A stretch of DNA of 44,489 nt, taken from positions 1-44,489 of the forward strand of contig WQXS01000015.1 of NCBI GenBank assembly GCA_009784725.1. The letters run 5' to 3'. The position numbers and the translations under genes were made by a program. The stretch comes from Oscillospiraceae bacterium (GTDB lineage: Bacteria; Bacillota; Clostridia; Oscillospirales; Oscillospiraceae). Positions within the stretch are counted from its first letter, which is position 1; each line of letters opens with the position of its first letter. Below are positions 6,746-44,489 of the stretch, piece by piece. The notes under the pieces were generated by a model. That model saw nothing but the letters and a program-made list of their open reading frames with translations, did not search any database and was not told the DNA's origin.

Positions 6746-7660
6746 ATGAATAAAACAGCATTTATTTTTGCAGGTCAAGGCGCGCAGGCAGTTGGAATGG
6801 GCATGGATTTATATGAACATTATAACTGTGCAAAAGATATATTTGACATGTCCGCAGAAATAAAGGAGCTATGCTTTAACGGCCCGAAAGAAGAGTTGGA
6901 TGTTACAAAAAACACGCAGCCGGCAGTATTTTTAACGGGACTTGCCTGTGCGGCAGTATTATCGGAAAAAGGAATAGTACCAAACGCCGTTGCGGGGTTT
7001 TCACTTGGTGAGATTACGGCAGCCTGTTATGCGGGATTTATGAGTAATGAGCAAGCATTTGAGTTTGTAAAGCACAGGGCACAAGCGATGCAGGAGTGCG
7101 CCTTAAAAACCAAAGGAACAATGTTTGCAATATTAAAGCTGCCGAACGAAAAGGTTCAAGCAATATGCAAATCACTTATAGAAGCGTATCCCGTTAACTA
7201 TAACTCTCCCGGACAAATTGTTGTTGCATGTGCACAGAGCACCTCGGATTCCCTGCAGCAAGCTGTTACGGAGCATGGCGGAAAAGCAATAAAGCTTGCA
7301 GTGAGCGGAGCATTTCATAGTCCGTTTATGGATGAAGCAAGCAAAAAAGTTGAAAAATATTTGGAGAATATAAGCCTCGATGAAGCAATAATACCAATGT
7401 ATTCAAATGTTACGGCACAGTTATATAATGAGTCGGAATTAAATCCAAAGGAATTGCTGGTAAAACAAATAAACCATCCGGTCTTATGGCAAAAAACAAT
7501 TGAGAACATGATAAAAGACGGCATTGATACATTTATAGAAGCCGGACCCGGCAAAACACTCACGGGGCTGATTAAAAAAATAAATCCTGAGGTTCGGACT
7601 CATAATGTATCTGACATTTCCACTCTTAATAAAACAATTGAGGAGCTAAACAATGCTTAA
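6746..7660 (+). CDS. fabD: Malonyl-CoA:ACP transacylase (FabD)
   Basis: 304 residues. FabD moves malonyl groups from CoA to ACP. The nucleophile is Ser86 in AGFSLGEI, with His191 in GAFHSPFM and malonate-binding Arg111 (KHRAQAMQ). FAGQGAQAVGMG starts the protein as expected. Residue 85 is Phe where the E. coli motif has His (GHSLG); many Firmicutes FabD proteins also vary here. Its last 8 bases overlap fabG, which suggests coupled translation. Confidence 0.94.
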   Translation: MNKTAFIFAGQGAQAVGMGMDLYEHYNCAKDIFDMSAEIKELCFNGPKEELDVTKNTQPAVFLTGLACAAVLSEKGIVPNAVAGFSLGEITAACYAGFMSNEQAFEFVKHRAQAMQECALKTKGTMFAILKLPNEKVQAICKSLIEAYPVNYNSPGQIVVACAQSTSDSLQQAVTEHGGKAIKLAVSGAFHSPFMDEASKKVEKYLENISLDEAIIPMYSNVTAQLYNESELNPKELLVKQINHPVLWQKTIENMIKDGIDTFIEAGPGKTLTGLIKKINPEVRTHNVSDISTLNKTIEELNNA

Positions 7661-8454: not shown

Positions 8455-9681
8455 ATGAAACGTGTAGTAGTAACGGGGCTTGGTTGTATTACGCCTGTTG
8501 GAAATGATGTAAATACATATTGGAATAATCTCACTGCCGGGAAACATGGTTTTGCCGATATTACAAAATTTGATGCAACAGGCTTAAAAACAAGAATAGC
8601 TGCGGAGGTTAAAGATTTTAATCCCGAAGATTATCTGGAAAAAAGTGAAATAAGGAAAACAGATATATATGCACAATATGCCATAGCTGCAGCAACACAG
8701 GCGGTTGAAGACAGCGGCATAGTCGATAATATTAAATCAAACAGATTCGGTGTTTATATAGGTTCGGGTATCGGCGGTATTTCTACATTTATCACAGAAA
8801 CAGATAAAATGCTGAACAAAGGCCCGCAGCGTATCTCCCCGTTTTTTATACCGATGATGATAGCAAATATAGGCTCGGCTCTGGTTGCAATGAAATATGG
8901 AGCAATGGGACCCAACTTACCAACAGTGAGTGCATGTGCCTCAGCAACAAATGCAATAGGCGAAGCATTTCGTGCAATTAAATTCGGCTATGCGGATGCA
9001 ATAATTGCAGGCGGAGCAGATGCATGTATCAATCCGCTGGCGGTTGGAGGCTTCATAAATTGCCAGGCACTATCAACCACTAATGACCCGGACAATAGCT
9101 CCATGCCGTTTGACAAACGCCGTGACGGATTTGTCATTGGAGAAGGCTCAGGTATAATCATCCTTGAGGAACTAGAACACGCAAAAAAACGAAATGCAAA
9201 AATATACTGCGAAATCAGCGGGTATGGTAATACAAACGATGCATATCATATAACCGCACCACACCCCGAAGCTCTTGGCGCAACAGAACTGATTCGACTG
9301 ACAATGGAAGAATCGGGATTAAATGCAGATGAAAAGCTTTATATAAATCCGCACGGCACTTCAACACCGCTAAATGACAAGACAGAAACGCTCGCTATAA
9401 AAAACGTGTTCGGTGAGCTTGCATATAAGCTTCCGATAAGCTCAAGCAAATCAATGATAGGGCATATGCTGGGAGCGGCAGGCGGATGCGAAGCAATTGC
9501 GGCAGTAAAAACAATAGAAACAGGCATAGTCCATCCGACCGTCGGTTATAAAGAACCCGACCCGGAATGTGATTTGGATTATGTACCAAACGCTTCAAGA
9601 AAAGTTAATATTAACAAAGCAATGTCAATATCTCTCGGTTTCGGCGGTCATAACGCAGCAATTTTGTTTAACAAACTATAA
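8455..9681 (+). CDS. fabF: 3-oxoacyl-ACP synthase II (FabF)
   Basis: The ATG at 8455 gives 408 residues, matching the usual ~410, with AAAGGAGAAGGAA directly before it; the frame is open 50 codons further up but that part has no family similarity. The Cys-His-His triad is Cys161 (SACASATNA), His300 (INPHGTSTPLND) and His337 (SMIGHMLGAAGG). It is the elongating condensing enzyme. It starts 61 bp after fabG. Confidence 0.95.
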   Translation: MKRVVVTGLGCITPVGNDVNTYWNNLTAGKHGFADITKFDATGLKTRIAAEVKDFNPEDYLEKSEIRKTDIYAQYAIAAATQAVEDSGIVDNIKSNRFGVYIGSGIGGISTFITETDKMLNKGPQRISPFFIPMMIANIGSALVAMKYGAMGPNLPTVSACASATNAIGEAFRAIKFGYADAIIAGGADACINPLAVGGFINCQALSTTNDPDNSSMPFDKRRDGFVIGEGSGIIILEELEHAKKRNAKIYCEISGYGNTNDAYHITAPHPEALGATELIRLTMEESGLNADEKLYINPHGTSTPLNDKTETLAIKNVFGELAYKLPISSSKSMIGHMLGAAGGCEAIAAVKTIETGIVHPTVGYKEPDPECDLDYVPNASRKVNINKAMSISLGFGGHNAAILFNKL

Positions 9682-9737: not shown

Positions 9738-10217
9738 ATGAATCTTGAAAATGTAAAGGCTCTTGCCGATTTACTTAATGCAAAAGGACTCAGTGCAATA
9801 GAAGTGGGCGAAGGCGAAAACCGTATCCGCATCGAAAGAGATATAACCGGTTCGTCATCTGCGCAATTAAAACCCGCTCCGGCACCCTCACCTGTAAAAA
9901 ATGAAGATTCGGCAACTGCAGAAATACAAGCAGGGCAAATTGAACAGGACATTACAAACACACAAGTAAATAACTCTGCAAGTATTATAGAAATTAAATC
10001 ACCGCTTGTCGGTGTATACTATGCAGCACCCTCACCCGAGGCAGAAACTTTTGTAAGCATCGGCAGCAAAGTAAAAAAAGGCGACGTGCTTTGTATCATT
10101 GAAACCATGAAACTAATGAACGAGATAACAGCAGAGCAGGACGGCGAAGTTATTGATATCTGCATAAAAAACGGCGACATAGCAGAATACGGACAAGTCT
10201 TATTTAAGATGCAATAA
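9738..10217 (+). CDS. accB: Biotin carboxyl carrier protein of acetyl-CoA carboxylase (AccB)
   Basis: 159 residues. An N-terminal domain (1-~40) is followed by a Pro/Ala-rich flexible linker (~43-60) and a C-terminal biotinyl domain. Lys125 in CIIETMKLMNEI is the biotinylation site. AAGGAG precedes the ATG by about 13 bases. It carries CO2 on biotin between AccC and AccDA. The operon ends with a biotin importer gene, which fits the cofactor need. A dispersed repeat lies between accB and fabZ. Confidence 0.95.
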   Translation: MNLENVKALADLLNAKGLSAIEVGEGENRIRIERDITGSSSAQLKPAPAPSPVKNEDSATAEIQAGQIEQDITNTQVNNSASIIEIKSPLVGVYYAAPSPEAETFVSIGSKVKKGDVLCIIETMKLMNEITAEQDGEVIDICIKNGDIAEYGQVLFKMQ

Positions 10218-31530: not shown

Positions 31531-32478
31531 TTATCCGCCGATTGCATTCATATTTCGGATTGCATCACTATGTGAGCCGTCGTCAAGCCCGTGTTTTTTC
31601 GGCTTTCCATATATAGCGTCACGAATGGTTTGCTCCAGCTCAGCTCCGTGCAGACCCCTTAGTTTTATTTCTTCAGCAGAATGCAGACAGGGTTTAAGCG
31701 TTCCGTCGGAAGTAATGCGTATTTTATTGCATGACGGGCAAAAATGCGAGCTTATCGGGCTTATAAGACCTACTGTACTAAGTCCGTCGGGCAGCATATA
31801 CAGTTTTGTTACTCCGTCTGTACCGATTTCTCGGAGTTCCGGCGAAAGCTGTAAAACCCTGCTTGCGTTTATGAATTTTTCCTCCGACCAGTCCGCACAC
31901 TCACCGATTGGCATTAACTCAATGAATCTGACATCAACCTTATACTTTCGTGTTAGAGCGAGCATATCATAGATACTTTCTTCATTGATACCGCCGATAA
32001 GAACGGTATTTATCTTAACAGCATCAAATCCGGCTTTAATAGCAGTATTTAATCCGATAAGCGCATCATCCAATCCGTTAAAACGGGTTATCTTATTGTA
32101 CGTTACTGCGTCAAGTGAATCAAGACTGATATTAATGCGGTTAACACCCGCTTGTATTAACTCATCAGCATACTTTGGCAGTAAAATGCCGTTTGTTGTA
32201 AGGCATACCTCATTAATCCCGGGGGTTTCGGCAACCCGCCTGCAAATATCAATAATACCACGGCGAACAAGAGGCTCGCCACCTGTAATACGCACCTTAC
32301 TGATTCCGCAAGCTGCCGTAGCTTTTACGATCTCATCAATCTCCTCAATTGATAAAATATCCTCATGCCGCAGCTTCCTGATACCACTCTCCGGCATACA
32401 ATAAACACACCGAAGATTACACCTATCAGTCACCGACAACCGAAGATAAACTATATCCCTGCCAAACCCGTCTTTCAT
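31531..32478 (-). CDS. moaA: GTP 3',8-cyclase (MoaA), radical SAM
   Basis: The ATG at 32478 overlaps the fic stop as ATGA (an in-frame TTG at 32490 is less likely). 315 residues. Radical SAM cluster: Cys20, Cys24, Cys27 in SVTDRCNLRCVYCMPE. The C-terminal second iron-sulfur cluster has CPSCNKIRITSDGTLKPCL. The protein ends in ...AIGG, the MoaA C-terminal double glycine. Together with MoaC it makes cyclic pyranopterin monophosphate. Confidence 0.96.
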   Translation of the reverse strand: MKDGFGRDIVYLRLSVTDRCNLRCVYCMPESGIRKLRHEDILSIEEIDEIVKATAACGISKVRITGGEPLVRRGIIDICRRVAETPGINEVCLTTNGILLPKYADELIQAGVNRINISLDSLDAVTYNKITRFNGLDDALIGLNTAIKAGFDAVKINTVLIGGINEESIYDMLALTRKYKVDVRFIELMPIGECADWSEEKFINASRVLQLSPELREIGTDGVTKLYMLPDGLSTVGLISPISSHFCPSCNKIRITSDGTLKPCLHSAEEIKLRGLHGAELEQTIRDAIYGKPKKHGLDDGSHSDAIRNMNAIGG

Positions 32479-33515
32479 AAACAAACCCAATAACCCGTTT
32501 TATCCGAACCAACACGGTTTATAAATTCTTTATTTTTTAGTACACTTAACGCTCGCTTAACTGTTGATTCAGAAATGTTGCATTGCTTTGCTATACGTTC
32601 GGCTGTAATGTTTGGGTTTTTCTTTAATGCTGCCAGAACCCTTCGCTGGCTTTCCGAAAGTTTTACAGTGTCATTTACAGTGTCATTTACAGTGTCATCA
32701 TTTAATTTCTTGACACGCAAATCACGATTTTTCAATGTATTATTTTCATTTAATAAAAGATTGGCAAAAAAACGGTCGAGGAATTCCTGTGTTGCATGGA
32801 TTCCTTTTTTTATGTTTCTGTAGTTTGCTCGTACGAGGGCATTTCTAAAGTACCATGCGTTTTCTGCAAAGATGTCGTTTGTTACATCGAAACCGAATGT
32901 TCTTAAATACTTTATTGCAAATACAGCAGTTGTACGTGTATTTCCTTCTCCAAATGCATGGATTTGCCATAAACCGGAAATAAACTTAGCAATCTGCTTT
33001 GCAGCTTCTGTAACAGAGAGGGTTTTATAGTCAAACTCACGTTCTCTTTTAAAATCATATTCAAGGGTTTCTCGTATGCTGTCGGCACCGGCGTAATACA
33101 CGGTTTCCCCGTTTAATACCCATTCTTTTTTACTAATATTATAGTCACGTATCTTTCCTGCGAATTTGTATACACCGTCAAACAAACGGCGATGAATACT
33201 AATATATTCTACAGGGGAAAATGAAAAAGCCTTTTCTGCTAAAATTAAAGAGACAGTTGCAGAAACTTTATCCGCTTCTTCAGTGCGTGTGTTATCGTCA
33301 CTTTCAATAGGTTTTGACTCATAATAGCTATTAATTAAACTTTGTGCTTCTTCAAGAGTGATTTCACCGTTTATATTTCTGTTTGCTGTGGCAATTAAAT
33401 ATTCAGATGTTTTTAATCCATCAGTTTGCTGTAAGCCTATAGCGGTATGCCATATATAACCGCGTTCTTTTTGATCAGGCTCACCTTGGAGCATATAATT
33501 GTTGAGGTCAATCAA
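32475..33515 (-). CDS. Fic-family protein with C-terminal winged helix
   Basis: 346 residues. The Fic core motif is at 186-194, HAFGEGNTR (canonical HPFxxGNxR, Pro replaced by Ala), with a beta-flap region upstream (GKIRDYNISKKEWVL). Fic proteins usually transfer AMP to protein hydroxyls. No inhibitory (S/T)xxxE(G/N) helix was identified. Residues ~273-286 are a slippage-prone NDTV repeat hinge. Then a DNA-binding winged helix follows (LSESQRRVLAALKKNPNITA, ISESTVKRALSVLKNKEF). Its stop overlaps the moaA start, so it leads the downstream operon, an odd partner for cofactor genes. Confidence 0.88.
   Translation of the reverse strand: MIDLNNYMLQGEPDQKERGYIWHTAIGLQQTDGLKTSEYLIATANRNINGEITLEEAQSLINSYYESKPIESDDNTRTEEADKVSATVSLILAEKAFSFSPVEYISIHRRLFDGVYKFAGKIRDYNISKKEWVLNGETVYYAGADSIRETLEYDFKREREFDYKTLSVTEAAKQIAKFISGLWQIHAFGEGNTRTTAVFAIKYLRTFGFDVTNDIFAENAWYFRNALVRANYRNIKKGIHATQEFLDRFFANLLLNENNTLKNRDLRVKKLNDDTVNDTVNDTVKLSESQRRVLAALKKNPNITAERIAKQCNISESTVKRALSVLKNKEFINRVGSDKTGYWVCL
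32662..32697. repeat. Three 12-bp in-frame repeats in fic
   Basis: TTTACAGTGTCA repeats exactly at 32662, 32674 and 32686, encoding Asn-Asp-Thr-Val units in the linker between the Fic and DNA-binding domains. The unit is a multiple of three, so slippage would lengthen or shorten the hinge without a frameshift. Confidence 0.9.
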
Positions 33516-33781: not shown

Positions 33782-34423
33782 ATGGCAGAAATAATAAATC
33801 AACAAATTGCAGCTTTACGTAAAAATAAAGGTATTACACAAGAAGAGCTTGCAGGTCACTTAGGTGTCACGAATCAAACGGTTTCCAAATGGGAGCTCGC
33901 AGCATGTTGCCCCGACATTCAACTCTTGCCGGAGATTGCAGATTATTTTGATGTAACGATCGATGAGCTTTTCGGCAGGGATGAAACAGCAAAACCCGAA
34001 AGCAGTTCCATTGAATCAGTACCCTGGGATGACGATGGCACTCTTCGGGCGGTTGTTTTCATTGGTAAAAAGCTGATGAAAAAAACAGACGATTTATCCG
34101 AGTTTACGTTTGAATACGATGGAGAAGCATTAAACATAGAGTGTCAATGTAACATAAGCTGTAACGATGTTGAAGGCGGTGTAAACGCAGGCCGTGATAT
34201 CAGCTGTAATGATGTAGGTGGAACTGCAAATGCAGGACGCGATATCAGTTGCAACGATGTATGCGGAAACGTAAACTCCGGCGCTTCATTAACATGTAAT
34301 GATATTGACGGAAGCGTCACCGCAGGAAGTAGCATCAGCTGCAACGATATTTGCGGCAACGTCACCGCAGGAAGCACCATAAACTGCGGCGAAATCGACG
34401 GCGACATCTCCTCCGGGGAGTAA
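33782..34423 (+). CDS. XRE regulator with a Cys-Asn-Asp repeat tail
   Basis: 213 residues. The N-terminal HTH_3 domain (~5-65) has ALRKNKGITQEELAGHLGVT and NQTVSKWELAACCPDIQLLP. A linker with acidic residues leads to a C-terminal repeat region of six 15-residue units beginning near residue 123. Five of them start I/L-S/T-C-N-D-V/I; the sixth is degenerate (INCGEIDGDI). The periodic pattern of small, hydrophobic and Gly residues suggests a short beta-solenoid, like bactofilin-type folds. GGAGG precedes the ATG. A DNA-binding head with a solenoid tail could multimerise or sense something; that is inference. Confidence 0.8.
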   Translation: MAEIINQQIAALRKNKGITQEELAGHLGVTNQTVSKWELAACCPDIQLLPEIADYFDVTIDELFGRDETAKPESSSIESVPWDDDGTLRAVVFIGKKLMKKTDDLSEFTFEYDGEALNIECQCNISCNDVEGGVNAGRDISCNDVGGTANAGRDISCNDVCGNVNSGASLTCNDIDGSVTAGSSISCNDICGNVTAGSTINCGEIDGDISSGE

Positions 34424-34549: not shown

Positions 34550-36451
34550 TCATTCTTTGTTGATGCACAGAATTATTTTTACATTAAATTCATTATTGCT
34601 TTTTTCAAAATTAGCCGAGTCGCCGTATTTTTCAACAATGGCTTTCACCGACGAAATGCCGATGCCTTCACCTTTGCGTTTTTGCGACATAAACTTATCG
34701 TTTTCAATTTGAATATTCCCGTCAAAGCTGTTGGTAATAACAATTGTCAGCATCTCTCCAAACAGCTTGGATTGAATTTTTATATATCTGTCTCCATCCG
34801 TTCTGCAGCATGCTTCGATGGCGTTTTCAATGCAATTGCCGAAAATAATACACAAATCCGTATCATTTATACCGGTATCTGCCGGAATTTCTGCATTTAT
34901 ATGAATATCTATGTTTTCTTTTTTTGCAATACTGAAATAATAATGTAATATGGAATTTACGGCAAAATTTTCGCAAAATGTGATATTTGAACTGTCCGGT
35001 ATTGATTTAAAAAGTTCGTCCAAATAACCGCTGAGCTTTTCATGCTCGAAGCCTTTATTATATGCTTTGATTGTAGTTAAATGCTGCCGCAAATCATGTT
35101 CCGCCCGTTTTGTTTCCGTAATATGAGAACTGAGCGCTGTGTAATATTCAGTTTTCGACTGTGAAATACCTTCAAGTACGGCAACCTCGGTGGTGAGCCG
35201 TTGCTGTTCATGAAACGCCTGCTCTTTTTCGCGCATTGTCGCAACAAAAATTGCAGAAGCCGCACACATTGCAAGAACTAACATAGCAACACCCGTAAGA
35301 TGATACTGCGGCATTAAAAAGATTGTCGGCAGGTAACCAAAATCAGTCAACACGGATAAAAAGAATACAATTAGACCAAAAACAAAATAAATCTGCGGTG
35401 TGTCAATTTTCCGCCTGAGTATAAATTGCCTGATTATAAGCGTAACCAATACATAAATAATTCCCGGGCCGTATATAATATAAACCCAATCCATTAAATG
35501 GCTCATCGGTAAAGTATCTATAAAAATAAATAAAACGGAAAATACCGTTGATATTCCGTAATAAATATACAACACAGGCTTGTGCAGTACCTTCGGGAAA
35601 AGAATGTTTATGATTGCAAGAGTTAATGCAGCGGAAACCGGGATGGAAATATACTGTAAACGAAGCATCACAAACCAGTCCAACTGCGGAAATAAAACCG
35701 AAAACACCACATTGCCCGTCACACCCACCCGTATAAACCATACTATACAAAACAAAGAAAAATATAACGCTGCACGATTTTGAATACGTGTAAAGAAAAG
35801 CAGGATAAATAGAAATGCCAATAGTAAAAAGCAGCCCAAAACTATATTGGTTTGATATTGCCCGGAAAGAATAATATCGACAATTTTTGTTCCCGTTCCG
35901 ATACGCCAGTATGCATGCCCCCAAGGTTCGCCGTACCGGTGGAAATGGTTTGACGATTGCTGCACTAAAACGATTTTGCCGTCAACACCCTGCGCCGTAA
36001 AGGTTATACGTCCGTTACCGGGGATGTCTTTTTCGGGGTCGGCACTTGTAAACCCGATATCGGCAAGCCATGCACCGTTTACATATAGCCTGTGTGTGTG
36101 TCCAAGTGATTGGCGGGTGAAAGTATACCATTTATTATCTTCTACTAAAAAGGTTATACGGCTTGTAAGATATGAATTGTGCTCTACTCCGGACCAATCG
36201 TGAGAATAATTATCACCGTCATAAGCTTCAAACTCCTCAGGTGTGAGCAGTTCATTATTTATAACCTCCAGACGGCCTGTAGGAATATAAGTGTAATTAT
36301 CAAAGTCGATTTCGCGTATATCATAAATACCGTCATCACTGAATTCGTATTTCTGGTTGGTTATAGGCTGGTCAAATAAAATAAGCCCGTATGCCAACAG
36401 TAAAATAAGCAGCAGGACTGAAAACGGCAGTAATAATTTTACAATCCTCAT
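34550..36451 (-). CDS. GHKL sensor histidine kinase, LytS/AgrC type
   Basis: 633 residues. An N-terminal membrane anchor (~5-28) precedes a ~170-residue extracytoplasmic domain of 7TMR-DISM/jelly-roll appearance (LGHTHRLYVNGAWLADIGF), then seven or so membrane segments (~200-405). The cytosolic kinase has the H-box EHDLRQHLTTIKAYNKG, the N-box FGNCIENAIEACC and the glycine box RKGEGIGISSVKAIVEKYG. It should phosphorylate the LytTR regulator encoded 4 bp upstream on the same strand. A peptide or sugar ligand is plausible. The pair diverges from the peptide-export operon. Confidence 0.85.
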   Translation of the reverse strand: MRIVKLLLPFSVLLLILLLAYGLILFDQPITNQKYEFSDDGIYDIREIDFDNYTYIPTGRLEVINNELLTPEEFEAYDGDNYSHDWSGVEHNSYLTSRITFLVEDNKWYTFTRQSLGHTHRLYVNGAWLADIGFTSADPEKDIPGNGRITFTAQGVDGKIVLVQQSSNHFHRYGEPWGHAYWRIGTGTKIVDIILSGQYQTNIVLGCFLLLAFLFILLFFTRIQNRAALYFSLFCIVWFIRVGVTGNVVFSVLFPQLDWFVMLRLQYISIPVSAALTLAIINILFPKVLHKPVLYIYYGISTVFSVLFIFIDTLPMSHLMDWVYIIYGPGIIYVLVTLIIRQFILRRKIDTPQIYFVFGLIVFFLSVLTDFGYLPTIFLMPQYHLTGVAMLVLAMCAASAIFVATMREKEQAFHEQQRLTTEVAVLEGISQSKTEYYTALSSHITETKRAEHDLRQHLTTIKAYNKGFEHEKLSGYLDELFKSIPDSSNITFCENFAVNSILHYYFSIAKKENIDIHINAEIPADTGINDTDLCIIFGNCIENAIEACCRTDGDRYIKIQSKLFGEMLTIVITNSFDGNIQIENDKFMSQKRKGEGIGISSVKAIVEKYGDSANFEKSNNEFNVKIILCINKE

Positions 36452-36455
36452 CCTA

Positions 36456-37181
36456 CTACTCCTGTGTTGTTACCATAAACATATAATCCTTGTACGTTTG
36501 TTTAATCGCTTTTTTATCACTTCTGCGTATGGGGATTTCTTTATCGTTGCTTAAAATGAATGAATCGGCTGACATTCTTTTGATATAATTCATATTAACA
36601 ATAAAAGACCGCTGTGTCCTGAGAAATGCGCCGCCTTCAAGCTGCTTTTCAAATTCGTGAAGGCGCATGAAGGTTTTGATTGTTTCTGCGCTAGTATGAA
36701 TATACGTATATTCCGAAATGACTTCAATGAAAGTAATGTCCTTCAGCAGCACCTTCATCATAAGCCTGTCCGACAATACTTCAATATATCTAAGTGATGA
36801 TGTAAATTTTTCATTACAGATTTCAAGAACTTTTTTCACTTCATGATATTCTACCGGCTTTATTAAGTATTGCAATGCATATACAGAGTATCCGTCCAGG
36901 CTGTGAGCAGTGCTGCCGGTCGTAAAAATAATAACCATATCATTATTGGTTTCACGTATCTTTTTTGCTGTTTCAATACCGTTTGTCCCTGGCATGTAAA
37001 TATCAAAAAATGCAATTTTTACATCGCCCGGCTTATTTGCAGTTAAATCCTTGAGAAAATCATCACCGTTGTTATAAACAAATATATTTACTTCACAGTT
37101 GATTTCATCAAAATACCGCTCAACCAAAAGACGCAATTGATTGGCGTCTTTTTCTATATCTTCACAAATCGCAATATCCAT
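36456..37181 (-). CDS. LytTR-family response regulator
   Basis: The ATG at 37181 is preferred (GGAG 9 bases upstream) over GTG at 37187. 241 residues. The receiver has an intact acidic pair (Glu7, Asp8), phospho-acceptor Asp60 (AFFDIYMPGTNG) and Lys in YLIKPV. The C-terminal LytTR DNA-binding domain has YTYIHTSAETIKTFMRLHEF, FLRTQRSFIVNMNYIKRM and DKEIPIRRSDKKAI. It is the AgrA-type partner of the kinase at 34550-36451 and is likely to act on the divergent export operon promoter. Confidence 0.9.
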   Translation of the reverse strand: MDIAICEDIEKDANQLRLLVERYFDEINCEVNIFVYNNGDDFLKDLTANKPGDVKIAFFDIYMPGTNGIETAKKIRETNNDMVIIFTTGSTAHSLDGYSVYALQYLIKPVEYHEVKKVLEICNEKFTSSLRYIEVLSDRLMMKVLLKDITFIEVISEYTYIHTSAETIKTFMRLHEFEKQLEGGAFLRTQRSFIVNMNYIKRMSADSFILSNDKEIPIRRSDKKAIKQTYKDYMFMVTTQE

Positions 37182-37523
37182 AAACACAAGCTCCGTTTTG
37201 TATGGTTTTTATAACAAGAGATCAAATTTCCTTTGCCGAGCAAAGCTATTTAATCAAGCGTTTCAACGAGGTAGGAGATTTTACTCCCTACTGTGAGCTA
37301 TATTGTACCCCCACTTATAGAAGAAGGGGACATCTTGACCGAGTTTTATACCGGTTCAATTGAGTCATATCTTACATTATGAACAACCGATTTACAAGAC
37401 ATCAAAATGTGTTGAACACGCATTCTATTGAATTAAAAAGCATTTCATTTAAGGTCTATTGATTTATCAATTGCCGATACATATTTTAGTGATAAAAGTA
37501 GTTGCTCGGAGGTACCAAAAGTC
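37182..37523. other. 342-bp divergent regulatory gap
   Basis: It separates the two-component genes (minus) from the export operon (plus). Besides the candidate promoter at 37459-37487 it holds an imperfect hairpin at 37271-37291 (GTAGGAG ... CTCCCTAC) and a small palindrome ATTGAT-TT-ATCAAT at 37458-37471 that overlaps the -35 box. These are candidate sites for the LytTR regulator. No ORF with a ribosome site was seen. Confidence 0.5.
37459..37487 (+). promoter_or_regulatory. Candidate promoter of the peptide-export operon
   Basis: TTGATT (37459-37464), 17-bp spacer, TATTTT (37482-37487), 37 bp before the ATG at 37524. The -35 lies inside the palindrome ATTGAT-TT-ATCAAT (37458-37471). The match is fair, not strong. 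Confidence 0.5.
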
Positions 37524-38048
37524 ATGGAAAACACATTCATGCGGCTCGCTGTATATGACAACACCGAAAAAGACCGTGAGCTCACCGTGTCATATATTTC
37601 CGCATATTTTGAACGTACAGATATACCGGTAAAAATTCATCGTTTTTATGATACAAACGGTCTCATAGATGCTTTCCGCCATGACCGGTTTACAGCGGTT
37701 TTTATCGGCATGGACAGTATGAATGAAGTGGATGCGGCTTGGATTATCCGAAAATTCGCTCCCGGTTGTTCTCTTGTAATAATGAGCAACAGCGGAGATT
37801 ACAGCCTGGAAGGATATAGACTCGAAGCATTTAATTACTGGCTAAAGCCGGTTGGCTCCGAAAAAGCCGGAGAAACGTTGGAGCGTTTGATGGCACACCA
37901 TACCGTACCTCATACGAAAGATTTTAAACGCAATATTACACACCTTTCTGAACATGACCTTGAAGGTATCGCAGCAGCGGGACTGCCACCCGATGAGCAA
38001 AGGAAAAAACAAAAGGAGTTGCATGTAAATGGAAAACTCATTATTTAG
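37524..38048 (+). CDS. Degenerate receiver-like protein heading the export operon
   Basis: 174 residues. The first ~115 align by eye with the receiver of the LytTR regulator next door (LAVYDNTEKD versus IAICEDIEKD; FNYWLKPV versus LQYLIKPV). The acidic pair is Asp12-Asn13 and the phospho-acceptor position is Gly62 instead of Asp, though Asp64 is nearby. There is no LytTR or other DNA-binding domain. The tail contains LSEHDLEGIAAAG (141-153), which resembles the LxxxxLxxVAGG ends of the precursor leaders here, then a basic stretch. It is probably not phosphorylated. A modulator role is inferred. It overlaps the secretion gene by 20 bp. Confidence 0.6.
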   Translation: MENTFMRLAVYDNTEKDRELTVSYISAYFERTDIPVKIHRFYDTNGLIDAFRHDRFTAVFIGMDSMNEVDAAWIIRKFAPGCSLVIMSNSGDYSLEGYRLEAFNYWLKPVGSEKAGETLERLMAHHTVPHTKDFKRNITHLSEHDLEGIAAAGLPPDEQRKKQKELHVNGKLII

Positions 38049-38604
38049 AAAAAGTGCATTAGATAAAATATCATCACCGGAGCAGCTGAACGAATATATG
38101 AAGGTAGCGGGGCCGGGTGTGTGGGCGATACTTGCGGGTCTTGCTGTTACCTTTGCGGCGTTTATCGTTTGGGGTTTAATGGGTTCAATACCTGAAACGG
38201 TAGATATCACCGGCACAATGCTGTCTCCCGATAACGGTGTAATGGCGGTATATTCGTATTTACCTATTGACGAAACGAAGTATCTTCAACCCGGCATGAA
38301 AGTCCGGGTATCACCGGATTACGCACCAAGGGAGCAGTACGGATATATCTACGGTACTGTAAAAAGTGTCGGAAGTATGCCTGTAAGTGTAGAAAATCTC
38401 AGAGCGGCTTTAGGTGACAGCTTTGACATGATATACCTGCCGTCGGGTAACGTGATAGAAGTGGTTATCAAACTTGAAGTATTGGATGGCAACCCGCGCT
38501 GGTCGACAGCTAAAGGCGCATCGGTTGAAGTCATCATTGGCTCAACCTGTTTAGTGGATGTAATAACAGCGGAACGCAAACCTTACGAACTGATGTTCAG
38601 GTGA
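38029..38604 (+). CDS. NHLM-type secretion protein (HlyD-like), short form
   Basis: 191 residues. LFRKSALDKISSPEQLNEYM is the start typical of NHLM bacteriocin system secretion proteins. One membrane segment (~31-53) is followed by a periplasm/wall-side beta-barrel-like part with PGMKVRVSPDYAPREQYGYI and GASVEVIIGSTCLVDVI. It lacks the long coiled coil of Gram-negative HlyD proteins and would act with the two following ABC transporters. The start overlaps the receiver-like gene; GGAG lies 10 bases upstream. Confidence 0.85.
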   Translation: MENSLFRKSALDKISSPEQLNEYMKVAGPGVWAILAGLAVTFAAFIVWGLMGSIPETVDITGTMLSPDNGVMAVYSYLPIDETKYLQPGMKVRVSPDYAPREQYGYIYGTVKSVGSMPVSVENLRAALGDSFDMIYLPSGNVIEVVIKLEVLDGNPRWSTAKGASVEVIIGSTCLVDVITAERKPYELMFR

Positions 38605-38606
38605 GG

Positions 38607-38687
38607 TGTCATTCTGAGGGAGTGTAGCGACTGAAGAATCTGTTTCGATGAATTTTGACAAGATCCTTCGCTTTGCTCAGGATGACA
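38607..38687. repeat. 81-bp element with terminal inverted repeats
   Basis: It begins TGTCATTCTGAG and ends CTCAGGATGACA, and its two halves are imperfectly complementary (GAAGAATCTG / AAGATCCTTCG). It has the form of a REP- or MITE-like element. It starts 3 bp after the secretion gene stop and ends 14 bp before the next ATG; the GGGAG ribosome site of the exporter lies just beyond its right edge. TGTCATTCTGAG-type palindromes are a widespread intergenic repeat class. Confidence 0.8.
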
Positions 38688-38701
38688 TGGGAGATTAATT
38701 A

Positions 38702-40879
38702 ATGAAAGCAAAAGCAGCAAAAACACCATTCATAATGCAGATGGAAGCTCTTGAATGCGGAGCGGCTTCCTTGTGTATGGTATTGGCATATTATGGTAAA
38801 TGGATACCGCTTGAACAGGTGCGCTCAGACTGCGGAGTATCACGTGACGGCAGTAATGCACGAAATATCTACCGTGCAGCCGTATCATATGGATTAAAAC
38901 CCACAGCGTACCGCATGGAGCCGGCAGAGCTTCGCGATGTGAAGTGTCCCGCTATCATACACTGGAACTTTAATCATTTTGTGGTCTTAAACGGCTTTAA
39001 GAAAAAATGTGCAGTCATAAACGACCCCGGACGAGGAACAACTGAGGTATCGCTCGAAGAATTCGACAGGTCGTTTACCGGAATAGTGATGACATTTGAG
39101 ACTACAGATGAATTTATAAAAGAAGGAAAACCACGCAGTGTTTTACGTTTTGCAATGAGCCGTCTCAAAGGAACGATTCCCGCATTTGTATTTGTGTTCC
39201 TAATGGGTATCTTCGCTTCAATGATAGATATACTCAACCCCGTGTTTACACGTATATTCATGGACGATATCCTGTCGGGCAGAAACAGGTCATGGCTGAT
39301 GCCGTTTATCATAGCTATGTTGCTGGTTTTGCTTGTAAGGCTTATCTTGTCCGTTATTAATGCGGTATGCCGTCTTCGTATGGAAGGTAAGTTCGCCATA
39401 ACCGCAAACGCCGAGTTTATGTGGCATGTGCTTCGGTTACCGATGGAGTTTTTCTCACAACGTTATGCAGGTGATATCCTCATGCGCCAGTCTTCAAACG
39501 AAGGTATCGCAAGCATGCTCATATCACAGTTCTCACCGATACTCATAAACATGGGTCTGATGATCTTTTACTTCATCATGCTTCTGCAGTATAACCCGAT
39601 ACTTACAGCTATAGGCATCGGTTCTGCAGTGCTGAACATGGTGTTTTCGCAGTATATGGCGAAGAAAAGTGTCACCTTTGCACGGCAGTCACAATCATCG
39701 GGCGGTAATCTCAGCAGTGTCACTATGTCGAGCATAGACATGATTGAAACTATCAAAGCATCCGGAGCCGAGGGCGGCATATTCGAGCGGTATGCAGGTT
39801 ATCTTGCAAAACAGCACAATGCGGGTATAGCAGGCGAACGTTTTTCGATGAAATTCGGTCTGATACCATCGGTGGTAAGCCAGATACTCAACATCGTTGT
39901 AATGATGATTGGTGTTGCTTTTATCATGGACGGGCATATGACAATCGGAACTATGGCTGCATTCCAAGGCTTCCTCGGTTCGTTTCTCGCACCCGTCGGT
40001 CAGTTCTCGGGCATCCTGCAAAGCCTGACAACAATGCGTACAAACATGGAACGTATCGAGGACGTAATGAATTACAAGGTCGAGCCTTCAGCAAGTGAGA
40101 ACACAAGAGAACCGTCCCCTCTGTGCTCAAGAGAACCGTCCCCCTGTCTTGGTGGTAAGCTGTCCGGCGCATTGAAGATAGATAATGTTACCTTTGGGTA
40201 CAATAAATTATCCGACCCGTTGATTAAGAATTTCTCACTTGATTTGCAACCGGGCAAGTCTGTTGCAATCGTCGGTGCGTCCGGGTCGGGCAAGTCAACG
40301 CTCGCCAAGCTAATCACAGGGTTGTACGAACCCTGGGAGGGTGAAATACTTTTTGATGGCAAACACAGGCTCGAAATAGATAACTATTCATTCCGCAGCA
40401 GCGTGTCCATGGTAGACCAGGAAATCATGTTGTTCGAGGACACGGTGGCGGAAAACATCCGTATGTGGGACCCCTCGATAGAAGATTTTGCCGTAATTCT
40501 CGCCGCTCGTGATGCGGACATTCACGAAACCATCGTTACACGCCCAGGCGGGTATAACCAGATAGTTGCGGAAAACGGTAAAAACTTCTCGGGCGGTCAG
40601 CGCCAGAGACTTGAAATTGCACGGGTTTTAGCACAAGAACCTGTTATTGCAATTTTGGATGAAGCTACAAGTGCACTCGATGCCAAAACCGAAGAAACTG
40701 TTATGACTAATATCCGGAAAATTGGTTGTTCCTGTATCGTCATTGCACACCGTCTTTCCACAGTACGCGACTGCGACGAAATTATCGTCCTCGAAAAAGG
40801 CGACGTCGTAGAACGCGGCACACATGATGAACTATACGCCATGTCCGGCAAATACGCCGAGTTGGTGGCTACGGAGTAA
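38702..40879 (+). CDS. NHLP-type peptidase/permease/ATPase peptide exporter
   Basis: 725 residues in three parts. The C39 peptidase (~1-140) has Gln13, nucleophile Cys19 (ALECGAASLCMVL), His92 (NFNHFVVLNG) and Asp108 (VINDPGRG), so it is intact and should cut after double glycine. The membrane domain (~150-450) precedes the ATPase: Walker A VGASGSGKSTLAK, signature FSGGQRQRLEIA, Walker B VIAILDEATSALDA, and the switch His in IVIAHRLST. It should mature and export the precursor peptides at 43.1 kb onward. Residues 469-482 (REPSPLCSREPSPC) are encoded by a dispersed repeat and sit in the linker before the ATPase. Confidence 0.92.
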   Translation: MKAKAAKTPFIMQMEALECGAASLCMVLAYYGKWIPLEQVRSDCGVSRDGSNARNIYRAAVSYGLKPTAYRMEPAELRDVKCPAIIHWNFNHFVVLNGFKKKCAVINDPGRGTTEVSLEEFDRSFTGIVMTFETTDEFIKEGKPRSVLRFAMSRLKGTIPAFVFVFLMGIFASMIDILNPVFTRIFMDDILSGRNRSWLMPFIIAMLLVLLVRLILSVINAVCRLRMEGKFAITANAEFMWHVLRLPMEFFSQRYAGDILMRQSSNEGIASMLISQFSPILINMGLMIFYFIMLLQYNPILTAIGIGSAVLNMVFSQYMAKKSVTFARQSQSSGGNLSSVTMSSIDMIETIKASGAEGGIFERYAGYLAKQHNAGIAGERFSMKFGLIPSVVSQILNIVVMMIGVAFIMDGHMTIGTMAAFQGFLGSFLAPVGQFSGILQSLTTMRTNMERIEDVMNYKVEPSASENTREPSPLCSREPSPCLGGKLSGALKIDNVTFGYNKLSDPLIKNFSLDLQPGKSVAIVGASGSGKSTLAKLITGLYEPWEGEILFDGKHRLEIDNYSFRSSVSMVDQEIMLFEDTVAENIRMWDPSIEDFAVILAARDADIHETIVTRPGGYNQIVAENGKNFSGGQRQRLEIARVLAQEPVIAILDEATSALDAKTEETVMTNIRKIGCSCIVIAHRLSTVRDCDEIIVLEKGDVVERGTHDELYAMSGKYAELVATE
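40104..40150. repeat. Dispersed repeat read in frame inside the exporter
   Basis: CAAGAGAACCGTCCCC occurs at 40104-40119 and again at 40128-40143 (24-bp period, so in frame), ending CTGTCTT at 40150. Read in reverse it is the GACAGGGGAC-type element found at 10212 and 44254. It encodes residues ~468-482 between the membrane and ATPase domains without disrupting either. Confidence 0.8.
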
Positions 40880-40948
40880 TAGGGCACAGGGCACAGGGGC
40901 TAGGAGTAAGGTGACGAGAGAACGGAAGATAAACGGGAGAATAAATTC

Positions 40949-43111
40949 TTGAAAGAAATCAATATTTTTGATGACCAGCTTGATATACGCAAGACCGGCG
41001 ACGATATGATGTTCGAGGGTGCCTTTGACGACCTCTTATCAATACTGCAACTGCGGCCCGATATGAAGCAGGCCGATATATCCGATGCGGTTGTTGAAAT
41101 ACTCACACACCTCAGATTAAAGATACCTGAAGTACCGCCGGAGCTTACTGACCCCGAAGCCCGGATTGAATACATGCTGCGCCCGTCGGGTGCAATGCGC
41201 CGCAGGGTTGAGCTAAAAGGTCAGTGGTGGAAGGATTCGGTCGACCCGTTCTTTGGCTGTACCATAGACGGCGACCCTGTCGCAATTTTACCAAGCAAAT
41301 CAGGCGGTTACACTTACCGTGACAAGGACGGTAAAAAGATTAAAGTAAACAAAGAAACAGCAAAAAATATAGGCGAGGATGCATTTTGCTTCTACAAGCC
41401 GTTTGCATTAAAGAAACTAAGACTTATCGACTTTGCGCTCTTTATGATAAAGAACGTACGTATACCCGACTTTGTATATGTGCTGATAATATCGCTTATT
41501 GTAGCACTATTAGGACTTACATCACCATACGTGCAAAGCCAGCTGTATGGAACCGTCATTCCATCGGGCATCAAGACGAACATCCTCGCTGTCGGGTTCC
41601 TACTTGCGGGTACTGCTATAGGTTCGATACTGTTTGGGCTTGCACAGAGCCTTGTGCTTACACGTTTTTCGACACTGTTCATCCGTGTTCAAAACGCCGC
41701 TATGATGCGTGTACTGTCACTGCCTGTTACATTTTTCAAGGATTATGCTGCAGGCGAGGTTGCAAGCCGTATGGGCAGCCTGACATCTTTATGCCAGACC
41801 ATTTCAAACACGTTTATGTCTACGGGGCTGACTGCAGTATTCTCACTGGTATTCCTGTTCCAGATGCAGTATTACGCACCAAGTATGGTAGCACCTGCAT
41901 TTCTTGTAATACTGACTATGCTGACGGTTTCTATTCTTACTACTGTACTTAACATGAAGATATCACGAAAACGCATGAATGCAAGTGCGAAGCTCTCGGC
42001 ACTTCTCTTTGCACTCATAAGCGGTATACAGAAGATAAAACTTACGGGTGCTCAGAAACGTGCGTTTGCAAAATGGGCTGCAAACTGCAAGGAAATCGGG
42101 TGTCTTACATATTCACCCCCGATTTTTCTAAGACTGCTCGAACCTATAAATCTCATCATCTCACTCGGCGGTGGAATCTTGATGTACTATGTTGCAGGTG
42201 CTTCGGGTATCGGTACTGCCGATTATCTTGCATTTATGGCAGCATACGGTTCGATGTCGGGAGCTATTATGATGCTTTCAGGGCTTGCTCATACATTTAC
42301 CGATATCCGTGTCAACCTTGAAATGGTACGTCCTATCATGGAATGTGAGCCGGAAGTGCATGAAAACAAGAAACAGCTTACATCGCTGTCAGGCATGATG
42401 GAAATGAATAACGTATCATTTCGTTACCGTGAAGACGGACCTTTGATACTTGATAACATAAACCTGAAAATCCGTCCCGGTGAATATGTTGCAATAGTCG
42501 GGAAAACAGGCTGCGGTAAGTCTACCCTGCTAAGATTATTGCTCGGTTTTGAAACACCTGAAACGGGTGACATCTACTATGACGGGCATAGCCTTTCTAG
42601 TCTTGATTTACGTGCACTGCGCCAGTGTATAGGTGTTGACCTGCAAAACGGCAAGCTGATGGCAGGTTCGATATTTTCAAACATCGTTGTAACAGCACCT
42701 TGGAAAACACTTGATGATGCATGGGAAGCCGCCGAGCTTGCGGGTATCGCACAGGATATCCGAGAGATGCCGATGGGTATGCACACCATGATTGCCGAAG
42801 GCGGCGGCGGTGTTTCCGGCGGGCAAAGACAACGCCTGCTCATTGCACGTTCTCTTATTTCCAAACCGAAGATGATTTTCTTCGACGAAGCAACAAGCGC
42901 ACTTGACAACATCACCCAAAAGCATGTTGCACAGTCGATAGACGGGCTAAAAGCAACACGCATTATAATCGCTCACAGACTCTCTACAATACGAGGCTGT
43001 GACCGTGTGATCATGCTCGACACCGGCAAAATAATCGAGCAGGGCGGATATGACGAGCTTATGGATAAACAAGGCGAGTTCTATGAGCTTGTGAAACGCC
43101 AGACAGTGTAA
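40949..43111 (+). CDS. Second NHLP-type ABC transporter (permease/ATPase)
   Basis: 720 residues from TTG 40949; GGGAGA precedes it. The N-terminal ~170 residues are cytosolic and not a C39 peptidase; they contain DPFFGCTIDGDPVAIL and SGGYTYRDKDGKKIKV, as in the NHLP ATPase/permease partner proteins. The membrane domain (~175-480) precedes an ATPase with IVGKTGCGKSTLLRLLLG, VSGGQRQRLLIA and IFFDEATSALDN. It follows the peptidase-bearing transporter by 69 bp and presumably works with it. The gap 40880-40948 contains GGGCACAGGGCACAGGGG, a short low-complexity repeat. Confidence 0.9.
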   Translation: MKEINIFDDQLDIRKTGDDMMFEGAFDDLLSILQLRPDMKQADISDAVVEILTHLRLKIPEVPPELTDPEARIEYMLRPSGAMRRRVELKGQWWKDSVDPFFGCTIDGDPVAILPSKSGGYTYRDKDGKKIKVNKETAKNIGEDAFCFYKPFALKKLRLIDFALFMIKNVRIPDFVYVLIISLIVALLGLTSPYVQSQLYGTVIPSGIKTNILAVGFLLAGTAIGSILFGLAQSLVLTRFSTLFIRVQNAAMMRVLSLPVTFFKDYAAGEVASRMGSLTSLCQTISNTFMSTGLTAVFSLVFLFQMQYYAPSMVAPAFLVILTMLTVSILTTVLNMKISRKRMNASAKLSALLFALISGIQKIKLTGAQKRAFAKWAANCKEIGCLTYSPPIFLRLLEPINLIISLGGGILMYYVAGASGIGTADYLAFMAAYGSMSGAIMMLSGLAHTFTDIRVNLEMVRPIMECEPEVHENKKQLTSLSGMMEMNNVSFRYREDGPLILDNINLKIRPGEYVAIVGKTGCGKSTLLRLLLGFETPETGDIYYDGHSLSSLDLRALRQCIGVDLQNGKLMAGSIFSNIVVTAPWKTLDDAWEAAELAGIAQDIREMPMGMHTMIAEGGGGVSGGQRQRLLIARSLISKPKMIFFDEATSALDNITQKHVAQSIDGLKATRIIIAHRLSTIRGCDRVIMLDTGKIIEQGGYDELMDKQGEFYELVKRQTV

Positions 43112-43138
43112 CTAACTCAAACAAAAAGGAGAGTGAAC

Positions 43139-43660
43139 ATGGGCACAAGAAATGCAGCTATTAATCAATACGAAGACTTTATTAAGGAAACCGAAGCAAA
43201 CAGCGATTTGCGAGAGAAATTCAGCGCACTTTGCGCAACAGGCGCGACCATTGATGCTGTTATAACCTTTGCCGCAGAACACGGCTTTGTCTTTTCGAGA
43301 GAAGACATGGGCAATCTCCCTGCGTCCGACCCTCCTAAGGAACCCGTACCGCTGAAACCGGAAGAACTTTCTGACGTGGTCGGAGGTACTCAAGTCGGCG
43401 GTAGTGGCTCCGGTGCTAAGTATTGCTTCTTTACGCCAACCGGAAAGGAGAGCATCGGCGGGGACGATATGGTATGGCTGGAATGCGGCGTTTACTGCGG
43501 ATTCGGGTCAGATGCAAATCTCTGTGCCTGTTGGGGGAAGTCTCATTGTGTAAACAAATGGCATATGTGCGGACCCAAGAACAGTTTTCCTAGGGAACTC
43601 TGGCCGGTGTCACATAGAAACCATCAAGCTAAAAAGCCGCCTACTTATAGAACAGAATAA
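43139..43660 (+). CDS. Precursor peptide with Nif11-like leader, 7-Cys core
   Basis: The ATG at 43139 is 6 bases after AAGGAG. 173 residues. Residues 1-83 resemble the Nif11-like leader: a helical segment (YEDFIKETEANSDLREKF), a segment ending in AAEHGFVFSREDMG, and the double-glycine end PEELSDVVGG (74-83). Cleavage after Gly83 would free a 90-residue core with seven Cys, rich in Gly, Trp and aromatic residues and poor in Ser/Thr. Nif11/NHLP leaders direct exported RiPPs. The core matches no family I know. It starts 27 bp after the transporter. Confidence 0.85.
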   Translation: MGTRNAAINQYEDFIKETEANSDLREKFSALCATGATIDAVITFAAEHGFVFSREDMGNLPASDPPKEPVPLKPEELSDVVGGTQVGGSGSGAKYCFFTPTGKESIGGDDMVWLECGVYCGFGSDANLCACWGKSHCVNKWHMCGPKNSFPRELWPVSHRNHQAKKPPTYRTE

Positions 43661-43674
43661 AAGGAGAAATGAAC

Positions 43675-43968
43675 ATGGAAGAAAATAAAAACCTACAACC
43701 CGAAGCAATCAGCGAAGAGCTGCTTGAAGGAGTCGCGGGCGGTATTACTATTACAAAGGACCGCCACGACCCCTACTTATGTAAAAATTTGATAAGAACC
43801 AGAAGCGATGGCGCTTGTGACGGTAATAATTTTAATTATGCAAAAATATGGTGCGACCATTACAGACGTGCTAAATATGGCGAACATACGGGCAGGCCTT
43901 ATTGGGCTCACGTATGTATTAGGAATGGCTTCGATAGATATCACGGTGATGAGAACGGAAATACTTAA
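43675..43968 (+). CDS. Double-glycine precursor peptide, short leader, 4-Cys core
   Basis: The ATG at 43675 is 8 bases after AAGGAG (43661-43666); the nearer ATG at 43669 is too close. 97 residues. A 23-residue leader (MEENKNLQPEAISEELLEGV then AGG) ends in double glycine at 22-23. The 74-residue core has four Cys (DPYLCKN, GAC, IWCDHY, HVCIRN) and is rich in charged and aromatic residues. Its leader is nearly identical to that of the precursor at 44313, and the cores share DPxLCK and WCD, so the two are paralogues. Confidence 0.82.
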   Translation: MEENKNLQPEAISEELLEGVAGGITITKDRHDPYLCKNLIRTRSDGACDGNNFNYAKIWCDHYRRAKYGEHTGRPYWAHVCIRNGFDRYHGDENGNT

Positions 43969-44004
43969 TAAAGTGTAATCAAATAATAATTGGAGAGAAT
44001 GAGC

Positions 44005-44247
44005 ATGGAACACAAAGAAAAGCAAATCGTACCGGAAAAAGAATTAAAAGACGTCGTTGGCGGAGGTGCACCTTATTTTTGGTGCATTGCATGCAATGAA
44101 TCATATATCTATTGGTATGGAACTATATGCCCTCACTGCGGCTGGGACAGTAAGAACGGTCCCCCCACTTTGCCAAAGCAGACCCGTGTAAATGACCCGG
44201 AGGACGGTACCGGTCTACCGGAGGACGGTATCGGTCGATCGAGATAA
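44005..44247 (+). CDS. Double-glycine precursor with zinc-ribbon-like core
   Basis: The ATG at 44005 follows GGAG by 9 bases; earlier in-frame codons lack spacing. 80 residues. Leader of 20 residues, MEHKEKQIVPEKELKDVVGG. The core opens GAPYFWCIACNESY and continues with ICPHCGWDS: two CxxC pairs, the ligand pattern of a zinc ribbon or rubredoxin-like knuckle. The C-terminus has a tandem repeat (PEDGTGL/PEDGIGR, see 44197-44238). Either this is a small exported metal-binding peptide or the pattern is a chance resemblance. Confidence 0.72.
   Translation: MEHKEKQIVPEKELKDVVGGGAPYFWCIACNESYIYWYGTICPHCGWDSKNGPPTLPKQTRVNDPEDGTGLPEDGIGRSR
44197..44238. repeat. 21-bp tandem duplication at the end of the zinc-ribbon precursor
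   Basis: CCGGAGGACGGTACCGGTCT at 44197 recurs at 44218 with two differences. It is in frame and encodes Pro-Glu-Asp-Gly-x-Gly units. This is a recent local duplication of the core C-terminus. Confidence 0.85.
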
Positions 44248-44253
44248 CCATTT

Positions 44254-44283
44254 CAATAAGACAGGGGACAGTTCATCTGTCCT
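44254..44283. repeat. GACAGGGGAC-family dispersed repeat between precursors
   Basis: Its first 19 bases (44254-44272) are identical to 10212-10230. A 6-bp stem, GGACAG-TTCAT-CTGTCC (44266-44282), follows. It separates two precursor genes and could act as an mRNA structure in the transcript. Confidence 0.75.
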
Positions 44284-44312
44284 TTGAAAGAAGAATAAGG
44301 GGAGAAATGAAC

Positions 44313-44489
44313 ATGGAAGAAAACAAAAATCTACAACCCGAGGCAATCAGCGAGGAAGTTTTAGAAAAGGTTGCGGGTGGTATTTTCGGCACCACAAAGA
44401 ACCGTTATGACCCTAATCTTTGCAAAGACATGAACGGCTCCGATGCGGAACGCTGCAAAGGGAGTAAGACCTTAGGTGTATGGTGTGAC
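44313..44489 (+). CDS. Double-glycine precursor peptide, 3' end cut by the window
   Basis: The ATG at 44313 follows GGGGAG. 59 codons are visible to the window edge, with no stop. The leader MEENKNLQPEAISEEVLEKV then AGG differs from the 43675 leader at only two positions, and the ribosome region upstream is also duplicated. The core begins IFGTTKNRYDPNLCKDM and reaches VWCD; the DPxLCK...WCD framework is shared with the earlier precursor. A recent gene duplication is the simplest reading. More copies may lie beyond the window. Confidence 0.85.
   Translation, partial: MEENKNLQPEAISEEVLEKVAGGIFGTTKNRYDPNLCKDMNGSDAERCKGSKTLGVWCD

Follow-up and report, generated by a model that had tools for sequence, protein, structure and literature searches.

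We analyzed a 44,489-bp stretch of DNA from Oscillospiraceae bacterium (GenBank assembly GCA_009784725.1, contig WQXS01000015.1), hereafter the window, in which an NHLP-type peptide export operon is followed by an array of small precursor genes that runs off the end of the DNA. The window is one complete contig (G000:C15) of a 2.77-Mb genome in 99 contigs (98.41% complete, 0.72% contaminated), and its end falls inside the last precursor gene. Open reading frames (ORFs) were called mechanically throughout. After a receiver-like protein (described below), the operon comprises a secretion protein, two ATP-binding cassette (ABC) subunits and four precursors, P1 to P4:

38029..38604, + strand: short HlyD-like NHLP (NHLM) secretion protein of 191 amino acids (TIGR03794, 8.7e-30, 103.9 bits).
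38702..40879, + strand: NHLP ABC exporter with a C39 peptidase domain, ABC1 (TIGR03796, 914 bits against a cut-off of 853.3; Pfam C39, 1.7e-34).
40949..43111, + strand: second NHLP ABC transporter subunit, ABC2 (best-scoring family TIGR03797, 705.5 bits).
43133..43660, + strand: P1, precursor with a Nif11 leader and a seven-cysteine core (PF07862, 28.9 bits over a cut-off of 23.8).
43669..43968, + strand: P2, double-glycine precursor with an RxDPxxC/WCDHY four-cysteine core (homologues in genomes G009, G013 and G585).
43990..44247, + strand: P3, double-glycine precursor with a CxxC/CPxCG zinc-ribbon-like core (relative in G009, by alignment and profile).
44307..44489, + strand: P4, paralogue of P2 cut by the contig end (62% identity to P2).

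A preliminary description of this DNA, made from its letters alone, had proposed a peptidase-bearing NHLP exporter, a second NHLP transporter and a short NHLM secretion protein, and had suggested a search with hidden Markov models for NHLP, Nif11 and C39. That search recognized the cassette as well as the Nif11 leader of P1. The peptidase-bearing exporter was borne out in full, ABC1 also carrying the Q-x5-C, HFVV, DP, Walker A and SGGQ motifs, whereas the other two proteins have the expected best families but score below their cut-offs. ABC2 falls just short (cut-off 709.4 bits) and gave no peptidase match in a scan with Pfam and NCBIfam-type models; the HlyD-like protein, well under its cut-off of 156.2 bits, is about half the length of the full-length HlyD of an NHLP cassette, with its best stretch at profile positions 294-416 of 421. 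This short form is common near relatives of the cassette, where 24 ORFs similar to it span 69-209 amino acids; longer HlyD-like candidates in loci L060 (287 amino acids, by position) and L017 (303 amino acids) are not matched by the window protein. The short form may reflect the absence of an outer membrane. Across the family, 47 of 400 genomes match ABC2 at 1e-190 (50 places) and 25 exceed the TIGR03797 cut-off. The same genome holds a second, diverged HlyD-ABC1-ABC2 copy cut inside ABC2 (L016, the 4,021-bp contig C90), with 83.6% identity to the window copy over 2651 bp and 74.6% over 578 bp. A third, divergent cassette (L017 1-4529, contig C22) has a 577-residue ABC subunit too short for a C39 domain, HlyD-like and periplasmic-binding-like proteins (both by eye), and an ABC2-like start cut by the contig end.

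Four double-glycine ORFs follow ABC2, and in each a GGAG motif directly precedes [AG]TGARCATGG, which holds the start codon. The earlier expectation of at least four such precursors, one with a Nif11-like leader, is thus confirmed by the ORFs and by PF07862, and its cysteine counts (seven, four, a CxxC/CPxC pattern and a partial three) were right. P1, whose likely start is the ATG at 43139, is the only one to combine a Nif11 domain with a double-glycine site, its score against TIGR03798 being 31.4, just under the cut-off of 32.3. Leaders of 20-23 residues had been proposed for the other three; those of P2 and P4 run to 25 residues from the first methionine and 23 from the second, and that of P3 to about 20-25 by choice of start. 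The XyeA triceptide model TIGR04495 (cut-off 33 bits) gave P2 16.2 and P4 19.8 bits, over residues 2-25, the leader, only. The cores had been described as unlike each other and as matching no class. They fall into three types rather than four: P2 and P4 are paralogues of one family with relatives elsewhere, P3 is zinc-ribbon-like, and P1 is unclassified, as had been stated, with no relatives of its core found in profile and clustering comparisons.

P4 shares the core motif of P2 and is 62% identical to it over its 61 residues, and 40% over its partial core alone. Their leaders are identical at 61 of 75 nucleotides, the ten differing codons comprising eight synonymous and two replacement changes. 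Pairwise, P2 matched a G009 precursor at 5e-9 across leader and core. A profile of P2, P4 and the G009 core recovered a copy in G013 among the family genomes at 2.3e-6, and a five-sequence profile recovered three tandem copies in G585, a genome from another family of the order, at 4.4e-9, 8.0e-9 and 7.1e-8. Eight sequences make up the core family, of which six carry RxDP or RxNP and two carry YYDP, under a motif that is mostly RxDPxxC...WCDHY...C; all four cysteines are conserved in the seven complete members, and the first three also in the truncated P4. Clustering with phmmer at 1e-4 grouped the P2, G009, one G013 and two G585 cores and put the YYDP types of G013 and G585 in a separate cluster (the input held 358 candidate cores, with P4 entered twice and many spurious ORFs). 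Double-glycine leaders stand before the cores of P2, P4 and the G585 copies at 9375 and 9723, and Nif11 leaders before those of G009 (PF07862, 1.6e-12) and G013 6796 (PF07862, 23.9 bits against a cut-off of 23.8). The G585 copy at 10102 has a leader that is Nif11-like by eye, and the G013 copy at 7476 a long leader that matches no Nif11 model. By these comparisons, one core family appears to be carried on more than one leader type.

The family is sparsely distributed. P2-type cores were found in 2 of 19 genomes of the genus (P2 as query), in 3 of 400 of the family (profile A1), in 7 of 394 of the order (profile A3), of which only the own genome and G585 were accepted, and in 1 of 361 of the class (profile A6), which is G585 itself. 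Five genomes, G464, G609, G673, G613 and G508, were rejected as carriers: each gave a single match, which covered 19-52 of 66 model positions at 5.1e-4 to 0.0098, stop codons interrupt three of these matches, and the ORF lists of the G464 and G613 loci contain no double-glycine precursor. A mobile-element origin of P2 was likewise rejected, as tblastn found no match in phages or plasmids; a G585 core had no match in plasmids, and viral contigs gave no confirmed relative of the P2-type core. Searches of the open-licence PubMed Central (PMC) literature listed no title or abstract opening that describes this core.

We next surveyed the cargo of related cassettes. Forty-nine of the 50 ABC2 places were fetched, the 50th being the window, and some loci were short at contig ends. 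A strict leader pattern applied to these loci, the window and L110, L018 and L189 gave 87 candidates, of which 79 were kept; removal of five on inspection (a sigma factor and ORFs that are probably spurious) and addition of four that had escaped the pattern (P2, P4 and two G585 precursors) left 78 hand-picked double-glycine precursors. At E<=1e-3, 20 of these match Nif11, 6 LysM, 5 CW_7 and 2 zinc-ribbon models. Three genes with LysM or CW_7 domains share the strand of the cassette: L061 4529-5515, upstream of HlyD-ABC1-ABC2; L057 7970-8455, six bases from ABC2; and L067 4895-5170, about 4 kb from ABC2. As far as such domain matches can tell, these counts indicate that intact domains do occur as double-glycine cargo. 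Double-glycine leaders joined to LysM or CW_7 (Cpl-7) wall-binding domains were also seen at L072 14341-15345, L070 5441 and L063 11045 (the last by clustering only), and a further cysteine-rich double-glycine core family (VGAxAFE...) occurs in three genomes (L099 12534, L118 3082 and L189 10833). The same literature searches listed no title or abstract opening on whole-domain cargo of NHLP cassettes, and passages of papers that contain both 'LysM domain' and 'double-glycine' do not describe LysM behind a double-glycine leader.

P3 carries two candidate zinc knuckles, CxxC and CPxCG (sequence and alignment A10), and has a relative in G009 at 2e-7 pairwise. Searched alone against Pfam, it scored no better than 0.041. 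Combined with six similar sequences into a profile, it matched two CPxCG small zinc-finger proteins, PDB chains 9e71_Bc (3.9e-5) and 9fhl_C (2.7e-4), both cytoplasmic, and best of all the designed zinc finger 2i13 (3.4e-6), matches that are partly circular since the profile rows were chosen by cysteine motif. In a less strict motif test, CxxC..CxxC pairs occur in 10 of 87 double-glycine cores, compared to a mean of 1.2 and a maximum of 7 in 1000 core shuffles, and to 24 of 4287 other short ORFs, most of which are not genes (Fisher 5e-10). By motif, P3 and its G009 counterpart belong to a recurrent zinc-ribbon-like set. From the CPxCG small zinc-finger proteins P3 differs in carrying an export leader.

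The preliminary description had also noted that no LanM, YcaO or radical SAM enzyme is present. None of the kind that modifies ribosomally synthesized and post-translationally modified peptides (RiPPs) was found among the 28 ORFs of the window that were scanned, the unscanned ones all being shorter than 330 amino acids, but one radical SAM housekeeping enzyme is there:

31531-32490, - strand: MoaA (TIGR02666, 340.6 against a cut-off of 284.05), adjoining moaC.

MoaA aside, no maturase accompanies the Nif11 precursor within the window, as far as the contig end allows. The own genome gave no LANC_like match (one of 19 genus genomes, G010, did), and neither it nor G009 matched the radical SAM enzyme of the sister species G013 and G015, described below, at 1e-8. 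The absence of a maturase from the own genome is weak evidence, since in each genus genome with P2-type cores (G000, G009 and G013) the contig breaks off within or close to the array, perhaps due to more than one cassette copy, which is shown for G000 only (C15 and C90). G585 provides the stronger case, since it alone has a contig that continues far beyond such an array (102,666 bp, of which 19,901 bp were read). There, three P2-type cores and a further cysteine-rich peptide stand directly behind ABC1/ABC2, with genes for a histidine kinase and a LuxR-type regulator after them, and no LanM, YcaO or radical SAM enzyme was found among the ten large flanking ORFs (Pfam, E<=1e-5; overlapping antisense ORFs excluded).

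Altogether, we consider it likely that the operon is a permissive NHLP-type exporter of unmodified miniproteins stabilized by disulfides or metal, that is, a known cassette with a new cargo family. By homology, the C39 domain of ABC1 would cut each leader after Gly-Gly, and the ABC1/ABC2/short-HlyD cassette would move the core out of the cell. The cores of P1 to P4 would not be enzymatically cross-linked: P2 and P4 would fold extracellularly with two disulfides on their four conserved cysteines, or bind metal, while P3 would fold around a zinc ion. The leader, short or Nif11, may serve mainly as an address label, so that cores would move between leader types and be gained and lost in the array through duplication and recombination. 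The products would act outside the producer on competitors or neighbors, in a bacteriocin-like manner or as signals. To a broader proposal we would give an even chance: NHLP-type cassettes of monoderm gut Clostridia would be general exporters for miniproteins that are ready to fold (zinc ribbons, the wall-binding domains LysM and CW_7, and the new four-cysteine RxDPxxC/WCDHY family) with interchangeable leaders, rather than primarily RiPP exporters, P1 to P4 being unmodified members.

Several observations weigh against the unmodified-miniprotein explanation. The contig ends inside P4, and a maturase gene may lie beyond. Nif11 leaders are classically RiPP leaders, and the G013 array holds P2-type cores together with a radical SAM enzyme. 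Of 25 Radical_SAM matches listed for the own genome, 22 exceed the cut-off and only MoaA was assigned by a model, and the YcaO check covered the large ORFs of the window only. On the side of the cargo, the LysM and CW_7 counts partly reflect almost identical genes from related species, such as L061 and L072, the similarity of P3 to its G009 relative lies largely in the leader, and at 1e-4 the partial P4 core without its leader was linked only to its own duplicate and not to the P2 core.

Upstream of the HlyD gene, the following genes were found, the last of which belongs to the export operon:

34550..36451, - strand: 7TMR-DISM sensor histidine kinase with a GHKL domain (PF07695, 1.6e-15; PF14501, 3.3e-20), divergent from the operon.
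36456..37187, - strand: LytTR-type response regulator (PF04397, 5.3e-18; PF00072, 5.8e-12).
37524..38048, + strand: receiver-like protein (weak receiver matches: PF00072, 0.011; PRK14084, 2.4e-4).

From its position, the divergent kinase/regulator pair would regulate the precursor array. The receiver-like protein showed no DNA-binding domain; by eye, its tail, LSEHDLEGIAAAG, resembles a double-glycine leader and the double-glycine-like tails of short proteins in L056, L057, L075 and L084. The L056 protein (63 residues) precedes a sigma-factor-like ORF (1750-2420), and such RNA polymerase sigma-factor-like ORFs, again by eye, also adjoin NHLP cassettes at L084 17201-17812, L090 11739-12233 and L099 11073-11624. 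Elsewhere in the window, 33782-34423 encodes a repressor-like helix-turn-helix N-terminus (under model cut-offs), after which come repeats, each about 13 residues long and bearing the motif ISCNDxxGxxxxG. Within 37000-44489, promoter-like (8) and terminator-like (6) matches were not above their shuffle means (14.2 and 6.5).

This layout bears on the possibility that P1 to P4 are ordinary, unmodified class II-type bacteriocins or pheromones whose likeness to zinc ribbons and folded domains is incidental. A double-glycine leader, a C39 exporter and an adjacent LytTR two-component system make up the usual bacteriocin arrangement, and all three are present in the window. However, P2-type cores also sit on Nif11 leaders, the LysM and CW_7 cargos near related cassettes are not bacteriocin-like, and none of the scanned ORFs was conspicuous as an immunity gene, although no search was aimed at such genes. 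We regard this explanation as rather doubtful; as it too holds the products to be unmodified, it overlaps the miniprotein explanation and the two are not exclusive.

A further alternative is a RiPP cluster whose maturase lies past position 44489, the likeliest candidate being the radical SAM enzyme that is linked to Nif11 precursors in the sister species, in which case P1 to P4 would become cross-linked. In G013 and G015, a related cassette and Nif11 precursors with C-x-C, poly-Gly and WGCGC cores are followed by this enzyme, 93% identical between the two genomes and cut by the contig end in both. Moreover, G013 has two P2-family cores, P1 joins a Nif11 leader to seven cysteines, and the enzyme family was found at 58 loci in one scan of GTDB contigs (including gut and rumen Clostridia, Synergistaceae, Selenomonas and a Butyrivibrio), a good part of which hold Nif11 or double-glycine precursors. 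Against this, the enzyme is unmatched in the own assembly and in G009, as noted above, and G585 carries P2-type cores with no maturase among its scanned ORFs. Because a motif scan placed P2-type cores in only 1 of the 58 loci, G013 itself, we infer that the enzyme belongs with the C-x-C cores, whose cluster is larger than any other (72 members from 27 loci, not all within the 58), and not with P2 and P4. Against the C-x-C profile, P1, P2 and P3 scored -7.2, 0.8 and -3.7 bits, and none clusters with that family. Membership of P1 as a diverged C-x-C/poly-Gly Nif11 precursor, suggested by alignment, was rejected, as 2794 of the 2996 shuffled cores that returned a score (of 3000) scored as high. 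A RiPP cluster is unlikely here.

As to the C-x-C family itself, cores with C-x-C, GGGG(G), WGCGC/C-A-C and again C-x-C on Nif11 or double-glycine leaders were seen at L078 8091-9035, L110 671-6100, L101, L121, L134, L144 and other loci, many adjoining the radical SAM enzyme, two members of which were over no NCBIfam cut-off among their 25 best matches; it is possibly an undescribed radical SAM RiPP class. DUF7005 (PF22541; L078 5736-6767, L190 7871-8695, L191 10193-10993), with the motif [HN]HEC[AT]H, lies between ABC2 and the precursors in G013 and was considered as a candidate shared accessory; it occurs in 3 of 19 genus genomes, on other contigs in G009 and G015, and is absent from the own genome.

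Finally, a decaying or misassembled array whose precursors are not made is very improbable: two diverged cassette copies in the genome (C15 and C90) and contigs that break off within such arrays or right next to them in G000, G009, G013 and G015 are consistent with it, but the four ORFs keep ribosome-binding sites, starts and Gly-Gly motifs, the P2 and P4 leaders differ mostly at synonymous sites, and homologues keep the four cysteines.

The preliminary description had left two options, products that are unmodified or bound by disulfides or metal, and a modifying enzyme beyond the contig end. The first is the better supported, because the G585 array carries P2-type cores with no maturase in ten ORFs and because P3 is of a zinc-ribbon-like type; as to the second, the enzyme of G013 and G015 adjoins C-x-C/poly-Gly cores, which are absent in the window.

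The unmodified-miniprotein explanation can be set beside described systems. In the relevant passages of Haft, Basu and Mitchell 2010 (PMC2887384), mix-and-match of precursors and modification is inferred for NHLP/Nif11 systems, an idea that the P2-type core on several leader types fits, and leaders are likened to those of unmodified class II bacteriocins. The same three-gene ABC cassette is described there beside Nif11 and double-glycine precursors; compared to it, the window has an HlyD of about half the length, no maturase in the available sequence and conserved cysteine-rich miniprotein cargo, with LysM, CW_7 and zinc-ribbon cargo in relatives. Excerpts of PMC4289311 describe Firmicutes Nif11 precursors with a C39 transporter, some with radical SAM proteins; these anaerobe clusters resemble the G013/G015 arrangement, whereas the window lacks a RiPP-type radical SAM enzyme and has a different core family. 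The microcin V exporter, according to excerpts of PMC10231218, moves very diverse small proteins, and C39-type export of unmodified double-glycine small proteins is common to class II bacteriocin and microcin V exporters and to the export proposed here. The window differs from these in having two ABC subunits and Nif11-type leaders, and P1 to P4 are over no cut-off of the bacteriocin models.

Genes next to an NHLP cassette are usually taken to encode RiPP precursors that still need a maturase. Should many such cargos be unmodified folded domains, the puzzle of the missing maturase at these loci would largely disappear, and the secreted cysteine-rich and wall-binding miniproteins of gut Clostridia would become directly testable without any enzyme. 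The RxDPxxC family would offer a clean test, since one core occurs on different leader types.

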